NCBI GenBank assembly: GCA_030141605.1
Contig: JAQGDQ010000302.1
Location: 122,001-186,000, forward strand
Source: Tubiluchus corallicola
Lineage: Eukaryota > Priapulida > Priapulimorpha > Priapulimorphida > Tubiluchidae
Direction: 5' to 3'
Length of the DNA stretch: 64,000 nucleotides
Position 1 is the first letter of the stretch, and each line of letters starts with the position of its first letter. This document shows positions 38,401 to 41,400 of the stretch, in pieces. The notes under the pieces were generated by a model. That model worked only from the letters and a program-made list of their open reading frames with translations. It did not search any database and was not told where the DNA came from. Made by a program: the position numbers and the translations under genes.

Positions 38401-41400
38401 GTATTTTTATTTGGCCATTTGCAGATCCAACAGTAACACATATGACACATTCGGATGACGTTTTCAAATTGACTTTCGATGCCTGCCATTAAATTTTCTG
38501 AAGCATGCATTGTCCAAGATTGTCAAAATTCCATTAACTGTTGTTTCATCGTTAATAAAAATAATCATGATATTAAGAGCGTAAATAATTAATAGCTGTC
38601 TTGTCCAAAAACCTTGATTATAACTTCATGCAACACTGGTGACAGTTAATACACAATTTATGAACAAGCATCACCACATAAACACACAACATATCGACAT
38701 GCTCCCTACCAAATCGCTGACTAGAGGAATGCTTTTTCGTCGAGGTCGTATGTCCGGCATGGAGTCGATGCTGGTGTAAAAAGGATTACTCACTGGCGGC
38801 CTGCAACATATGTCACCAATCCAACTTGAATCTAAACTCTACATTATTGCTACAATAAAATAAAGTCAGTTTACCTGCGATAGTGTAAACTTTCGCTTGA
38901 CGTTGGGCATGGAATCTATGTTCGTGTACATAGGATTGCTGAGCTCTAATAGTCTGAAACACACAGGCAGTCAGCCATCAACATCCCATCATGCAATACA
39001 AAAACACTACAGAACAAAAATGCTTTAGAACCGGAACATTGGGGCAAACACAATGTACAAGCACCACTTTTAACAGACAAAAATATAGAAGGCTTGACTA
39101 CTTTTATGCTGTATGCAACAAAAAGTGGAACGACAGCTAACAGTAAATAAATAAAATAGTTTAGGAAGAATGTTTTGCAAAAAGGTAAAATGAAGTACTA
39201 TAGTATCAGAAGACAATAACTCAGTAGGGAATAATGTTAATAAGCTGAAATAAGGAATTTTTGAATTTAAATATTTTACACATGTCACTTACAGGAATAC
39301 AAAAATGACAAGGAATAAAAAGCACATCAACATTAGAACGGTCAAATTTTTGCATTAGCATCTAAACAGCAACTCATAAAAACAGTAAAAAACACAACAA
39401 TTGGTAAGCTTTGAGAACAAGCATAATTGAGCAAATATGCAACCAAGAAATCATGCTAGCTCACAGCCACAGGTCACATGTAAATGGCTGAACGTATCTG
39501 ACACACAAGTTACCTATGCATACTGGCTATCTATTACGTATGCATATTTACTATTCATTCTGGTGTGGAAAGCAGGGAGAGGGCGTTAGCATTTCAGTAA
39601 CTAACCAACACTAATACAATTTCCTCCAGTCTGATAATGAGTCAGTGCTTCCTACTGGGACTGAAACATAATTTAATGTTGTTTGCAGCAACAGTTTGTA
39701 CTGCAAAAAATGACACATTTTTTATTTTTACATGGATTGTAAACAGTTCAAGTAAATAGACGCAAATCAAGCGAAAACAGCCATGCGATTTCGTACACAT
39801 TGGGTATGCAGTTTAAGGCACAAGTCAATTTGCAAATGCTATAATATCCATTTATAAGAGCAACATTGGACCTATATTACTCACATGAGGTGATATTCGC
39901 ATATCCCAGAAGCACAACTTTCTGATTAGTGACTGATTAATACCTAGCTCCAATTCATCTGAAGTTGTTACACCATGACGGATACAGCACTTTTATGATG
40001 AGAAGTGAATAAGAAAGTTGTCTAGGACCAATGATGTGATAACCGAGGGAGCAACCTTACAATGCCTCTGATAAGTTTGAATGACACACAATCATGATAT
40101 TTCCAAGCAATTTCCCCATGCTAGCTATTTGGATTTGGTTCCGAGAATCAAGAAAAGCTTTATTAGGCTGATACCATAAATATCTAGCAAAAAGGTGCGC
40201 TGGTTTGATAGTTCCAAATGAAAAACATACACAAAACAGATAGCACTTCCTTGTGTTTGCACCAAAAAAATACATTTTACAAATTTAGAGAATTTACCGA
40301 TGCCAATCGTAAAAAAACATCAGCAATAGAAGCAGAACGATAAAAAACAAGATAACATAACAAGAGGCAACTACAGACAAGTAGAAAGATACTGACTGAC
40401 TTGTAAGTAAAAAATATTTCAGCTTACAAAGGACGACAGAGCAAGGGTGAAGAAGCGTGACAAAATTTTCACATGCAAACGCAATGGTAACAAACTCAAG
40501 CTACCCTGCAAGTTTTCAATAGGTGTAGGAGCGATTCTTTCTTCCAATGTGTGATTCTTGCTTTGGTTACTTAAGTCAGTGATATTAGCTGTTCAGCTAA
40601 CTTTCAGGTAACGTTTATTATGGTGCATTGTAATGCATCTTAAGTGCATTGTAGCTTTTTTAATTGTACCGTATTGTGTTGTATTATACTGTATTGCACT
40701 GCATTAAATATTGCTGCAGTGTACTACACTGTACTGATTTGAAGGATTTCTTCAAGTGCAACAACACTGTAGTTATATTTCAGGTACTTTTTCAAAATTC
40801 AAATTCATATTTCAAATTTTCAGTTAAAGCATACTTTGTTTTCAGAGTGTGAGGGTCAAAATGGAACAGCAAAGTTCTTAGTTATGAAAGCTAAGCAGCA
40901 CAAACTTAATCAGTAAATAGAAAGGTGATTACTAGAAACACCGATTTCTGGGCAATTTGACCTATCCCACCTATTTCTTTAACTTAGAAAGGACGTTTCT
41001 TATCGAAACCTGGCAAGTGTTTAATCTGTTATAAGATTATGAGACCCAGCCATATTTCTACAATTCTAAATGATAGTTAATACATATCAAAAAAGTACTA
41101 AACATTAGCACAGTTAATGCTGTCATCAGCAGGATTTATCAAAGAATAAGAATCGGGGTTCAATACTCATATAAACAAAATAGTAAGTAAGACACAAAAT
41201 CTAAAATATAGATATCATGTGCAATCTGTGTATAGCAATCGATATGAACATACTGCAGAGTATGCTCAAAAACGAGTCACAAATACAGCAATTCCCAGAG
41301 AAGGGTTAAAGCAAAGTTTATGGCTAGTTTAGTAGCATCATCAGTAGAAAATATTGGCAATCCATCTCAAGAGCTATAGTGCGTTGGGCAGTTAAAGAGC

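Follow-up and report, generated by a model that had tools for sequence, protein, structure and literature searches.

The UNC13 gene of the priapulid Tubiluchus corallicola very probably contains a tandem-duplicated pair of mutually exclusive exons, here called A and B, in the linker that precedes the C1 domain. UNC13 sets the readiness of synaptic-vesicle priming. Tandem mutually exclusive exons such as those of unc-32 and Slo are homologous neighbors of which one is chosen per mRNA, and the A and B exons appear to resemble them in this respect. Mutually exclusive exons are a known kind of arrangement; the A/B pair would be a new instance, in a linker for which splicing had been described before. 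The original prediction had interpreted the two exons as mutually exclusive, and this is supported by their phases, the stop codons generated by other combinations, their splice sites, the short intron between them, and the occurrence of A in Priapulus caudatus and of B in other phyla.

Organization of the UNC13 gene

The window comprises the whole stretch of 64,000 nucleotides that was analyzed. Probes for tblastn were taken from Munc13-1. The Munc13-1 probe gave an ordered alignment on the minus strand from 38.8 kb to 12 kb, and a C2C probe prolonged this to about 8.2 kb, so that C1 to C2C is covered in order. After refining the splice sites by phase we obtained an open model of a UNC13/Munc13 gene running on the minus strand from 46214 to 8237, with 31 exons per isoform (not counting a microexon and a candidate cassette exon discussed below). 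Every exon of the model is preceded by AG, and all except the last are followed by GT. Choosing A or B, and likewise C or D from a second pair, generates four isoforms (AC, BC, AD and BD) of 1204–1208 amino acids containing no stops. Pfam domains C1_1 (residues 104–153) and C2 are present in the first 478 amino acids, and the best matches in the PDB are to Munc13-1. MUN and C2C were assigned solely because homologous proteins carry PF06292 and PF00168, and the model has the domain order of the UNC13 family, i.e. C1, C2B, MUN, C2C. Searching 46215–64000 with four proteins and with probes of this kind gave no match to the calmodulin-binding site or the N-terminal part, and the N-terminal part of the gene may lie beyond the window.

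All the exons are on the minus strand. The shared upstream exon E0 (46138–46214) leaves two bases of an incomplete codon, E1 (36731–36808) is the next constitutive exon after A and B, and E3 (32563–32683) lies after C1 and again leaves two bases; these three were placed by splice phase. E2 (35180–35399) contains the C1 domain, located by Pfam C1_1. The remaining exons, encoding C2B, MUN and C2C down to the stop codon, occupy 8237–27350 and were positioned by tblastn and phase. In the MUN region there is in addition a 93-nt segment at 12675–12767 that would encode 31 residues in phase 0. It is a probable cassette exon, without counterpart in the P. caudatus protein, and a similar stretch occurs in bivalve and spider proteins. 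When exons were searched against the window for further duplications within the gene, the only clear pairs were A/B and C/D; the best other match had E = 0.014 and contained stop codons.

The top match among the best 120 of 3109 protein matches is the UNC13B-like protein of P. caudatus (P0001), which is identical to isoform AC at 1034 of 1187 positions (87%), with the differences scattered. Mollusc proteins among the matches listed have 67–79% identity to the AD query.

Structure of the A and B exons

Exon A (38875–38953, minus strand) is an alternative linker exon of 79 nt encoding 27 residues, and is matched in P0001. Exon B (38710–38800, minus strand) is 91 nt in length and encodes 31 residues, corresponding to the linker version of other animals. 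They are separated by an intron of 74 bp (38801–38874, minus strand), the shortest of the 33 introns of the model; the next has 142 bp. The 3′ end of E0 is GGA GG|gtaggt. Exon A is bordered by tttcag|ACT and CAG|gtaaac, its acceptor reading tgtgtttcag, and exon B by ttgcag|GCC and TTG|gtaggg. Each completes the codon begun by the two bases of E0, and both end in phase 0. Either exon alone therefore keeps the frame.

Joining A to B generates GCC GCC AGT GAG TAA, an immediate stop, and skipping of both exons also leads to a stop; the result is the same with or without the VLK microexon. These stops might suggest that A and B are alternative exons whose double inclusion is a deliberate unproductive switch lowering the level of UNC13. 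However, both single forms are kept in other species, which would be needless for a pure off-switch, and we regard this explanation as extremely unlikely.

The peptides encoded by A and B are clearly related. Their global alignment score is 38, compared with a mean of −13.7 for shuffled sequences, and none of 3000 shuffles reached 38. In tblastn, exon A used as the query retrieves exon B (E = 5e-5). With exon B as the query exon A was not returned in three settings, an unexplained asymmetry, and the global shuffle test is independent of tblastn. Within a core of 14 codons ten residues are identical, and of the nine of these that have degenerate codons five are encoded differently, as expected if both exons are kept as protein. 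Differences within the core fall at codon positions 1, 2 and 3 in the ratio 3:1:7; this is a weak bias based on small numbers (p = 0.04).

These results bear out most of the original prediction for the locus. On rechecking splice sites and phases its coordinates for both exons proved to be right, as did the 74-bp intron and a difference in length of four residues; its claims that the exons are homologous and matched in phase, and that joining them creates an immediate stop, also hold.

Exons A and B in other species

The P. caudatus protein P0001 begins with the sequence of exon A, followed by VLK and then E1. Seventeen of the 19 aligned residues of exon A are identical, with one inserted. P0001 is labeled low quality, and its model begins inside exon A at a methionine. 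As an ATG occurs at the same place in exon A here, exon A might instead be a first exon, providing an alternative start for a short isoform. Yet the acceptor of exon A is good and its junction with E0 is in phase, and in a low-quality model the upstream part may simply be missing. We consider an alternative start to be very unlikely.

We examined the distribution of the two versions of the linker among known proteins. Linker type was assigned in 119 of the best 120 of 3109 protein matches that could be aligned (in sets of 81 and 38). Leaving P0001 aside, wherever the linker is present in these 119 it is of type B, or a form of B particular to vertebrates or to molluscs. Chelicerates are among the groups whose linker closely resembles exon B. 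The sequence PNVKR, characteristic of the A version, was found in one of 240 proteins scanned, and that one is P0001. Likewise, among the best 120 of 459 matches to a 125-aa query containing A, the A version was present in none besides P0001. A search for A-like linkers using a 40-residue region returned two candidates, neither of them significant; it missed P0001 too, so it carries little weight. Within the proteins compared, the A version is known solely from this gene and that of P. caudatus.

Tandem exon duplicates can decay, and it could be proposed that one of the two exons is an unused, decaying duplicate. But P. caudatus retains A, the linker of other phyla closely resembles B, and both have open frames with canonical splice sites, leaving this proposal only a slim chance of being correct. 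The data are better described by a mutually exclusive pair.

A comparable situation may exist in a mussel. Isoforms X11 and X12 of Mytilus californianus (P0032 and P0036) are identical save for two blocks in the corresponding linker, and so resemble A and B as two versions of one segment within otherwise identical proteins. The mussel versions, which are known from proteins and not from DNA, have IDSMPEIKPRSKK in common with each other, whereas the priapulid A version is without IDSMPEIKPRSKK. Since the mussel versions share this core, a separate duplication in the mussel is the simpler reading, and its linker duplication is probably distinct from the priapulid A/B pair.

The VLK microexon

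A 9-nt microexon encoding VLK (GTGCTGAAG) is located at 36990–36998 on the minus strand, in phase 0 with ag and gt flanks. It was left out of the original prediction, whose list of splice junctions was incomplete in consequence. It is the sole VLK-coding 9-mer with ag/gt flanks within 38960–36805. A bare VLK 9-mer is not rare, with two in the window compared with 0.52 expected, and the assignment was made because of its place, its flanks and its presence in P0001, rather than the rarity of the 9-mer. VLK is found at the corresponding place in P0001, in several arthropod proteins and in two gastropod proteins.

A regulated 9-nt VLK microexon of unc-13 has been published for C. elegans and Drosophila, and the behavior of C. 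elegans is altered by forcing the microexon in or out (PMC12287369); it is also the subject of an earlier paper (PMC8378409). For the microexons of fly and mouse, convergence has been favored over common descent (PMC8797185). The published exon is similar to the present system in that it affects the same gene and the same linker between the calmodulin site and C1. It differs in being a three-residue cassette microexon, whereas the A/B pair would exchange 27 or 31 residues adjoining VLK. The term ‘mutually exclusive’ is absent from the main text of PMC12287369 and PMC8378409.

A second exon pair after the C1 domain

Exons C (29475–29581) and D (29157–29263), both of 107 nt on the minus strand and with the same phases, encode two versions of the C1–C2B linker plus the start of C2B. 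They are 211 bp apart. Both were identified by phase and shuffle score, and exon D is closest to the second versions of arthropods. Inclusion of both in either order, or of neither, results in a stop. The similarity of the two peptides was not reached by any of 3000 shuffles.

Sequence of D type occurs, as judged by pattern, in 17 of 81 aligned proteins, the other 64 being of C type only. Five of the 17 combine the two versions, apparently through joins in the gene model. No second version was found in vertebrates among these 81. Of the 38 further aligned proteins, eight have a divergent second version as judged by eye; all are from molluscs, and two of them hold both. Both versions are found within single arthropod species, in Ornithodoros turicata (P0033 and P0046) and Daphnia magna (P0051 and P0057), although the members of each pair differ elsewhere too. 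Proteins of Patella vulgata also vary in version, beside other differences. The arthropod linker thus resembles C/D in that proteins of one species carry either version; its position after C1 distinguishes it from A/B, which precede C1.

The D exon scored 81–93 against 12 D-only sequences of arthropod type, and 60–80 against 95 sequences of C type. Priapulid and arthropod D are probably of common origin on this basis. Six mollusc second versions (e.g. P. vulgata P0009) score higher with sequences of C type than of D type, and may reflect a separate duplication. We had considered C/D as one old protostome pair that includes the molluscs, and rejected this because the mollusc second versions are nearer to C; the proposed pair is accordingly confined to arthropods and priapulids.

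We saw no description of A/B or C/D among the open-access papers listed in our literature searches. Through annotated proteins, public data already contain C/D and exon A, at least implicitly.

Possible function of the alternative exons

By retaining A or B, each mRNA would determine which version of the linker joins the calmodulin-binding part to C1. mRNA species with both exons or neither, carrying an early stop, would presumably be removed. The 74-bp intron may additionally hinder the joining of A to B. Steric exclusion of this kind is possible; the reading frame is in itself enough to make inclusion of both exons unproductive.

It had been suggested that one version (B) carries an RRKS kinase-like site and the sequence IPLVSDL, and that the other lacks both. 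The PLVSDL stretch is indeed gone from A. The suggested difference in a kinase-like site is overstated, as A ends KRKFTLSQ and so has its own basic KRKFT site, and in each version an Arg occupies position −3 relative to a Ser or Thr. A simple contrast between a linker that is phosphorylated and one that is not is thus unsupported, and we dropped it. Loss of the PLVSDL stretch appears to be the clearer difference between A and B.

If both exons are used in a regulated manner, with an effect on release, then the choice of A or B would most likely tune the control of vesicle priming by this regulatory part. Judging from the VLK microexon, the choice probably adjusts the effect of this region on priming. 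It would act with the VLK microexon of the same linker, and probably also with the C/D pair following C1. A broader scheme can be put forward tentatively, to which we give somewhat less than even weight. C1 might lie in a spliced collar, preceded by A/B and VLK and followed by the C/D pair that arthropods share. Up to 2 × 2 × 2 = 8 variants would result, by which neuron types could adjust the sensitivity of priming to diacylglycerol and calcium; the pair before C1 would have arisen separately in priapulids and mussels. The importance of the linker before C1 is known from the worm VLK microexon; here a whole linker exon appears to be exchangeable. A second point of exchange after C1 leads to the testable idea that nerve cells tune release via the segments flanking the lipid sensor. 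As C/D versions occur in Drosophila proteins this is directly testable there.

Sequence motifs and other features of the window

Three TGCATG sequences, which we take to be Fox-type motifs, are found on the minus strand around A and B, one upstream of exon A (38990–38995) and two downstream of exon B (38627–38632 and 38504–38509). Three sites within 500 bp compare with 0.5 expected, a naive p = 0.015 for a motif that was picked after seeing the sequence, and the excess is only a hint. Of 42 TGCATG sites on the sense strand, 14 fall in an array at 60–61 kb. This tandem array (60245–61400) has a unit of 82 bp (or 166 bp), with 14 copies of the 82-bp unit.

A search of Rfam gave no matches at the gathering thresholds. 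On the opposite strand to UNC13, below its end, there is a stop-to-stop open frame of 287 aa at 3108–3971 (plus strand) with no Pfam match. A second tandem array, at 42060–43685, has 28 copies of a 58-bp unit matching at 97%, and lies within the intron of 7.2 kb that precedes exon A. There is an exact 256-bp tandem duplication at 47130–47643. A fragment of reverse transcriptase is encoded at 56065–56373 on the minus strand (Pfam RVT_1, E = 4.3e-8), and is probably the remnant of a retroelement.
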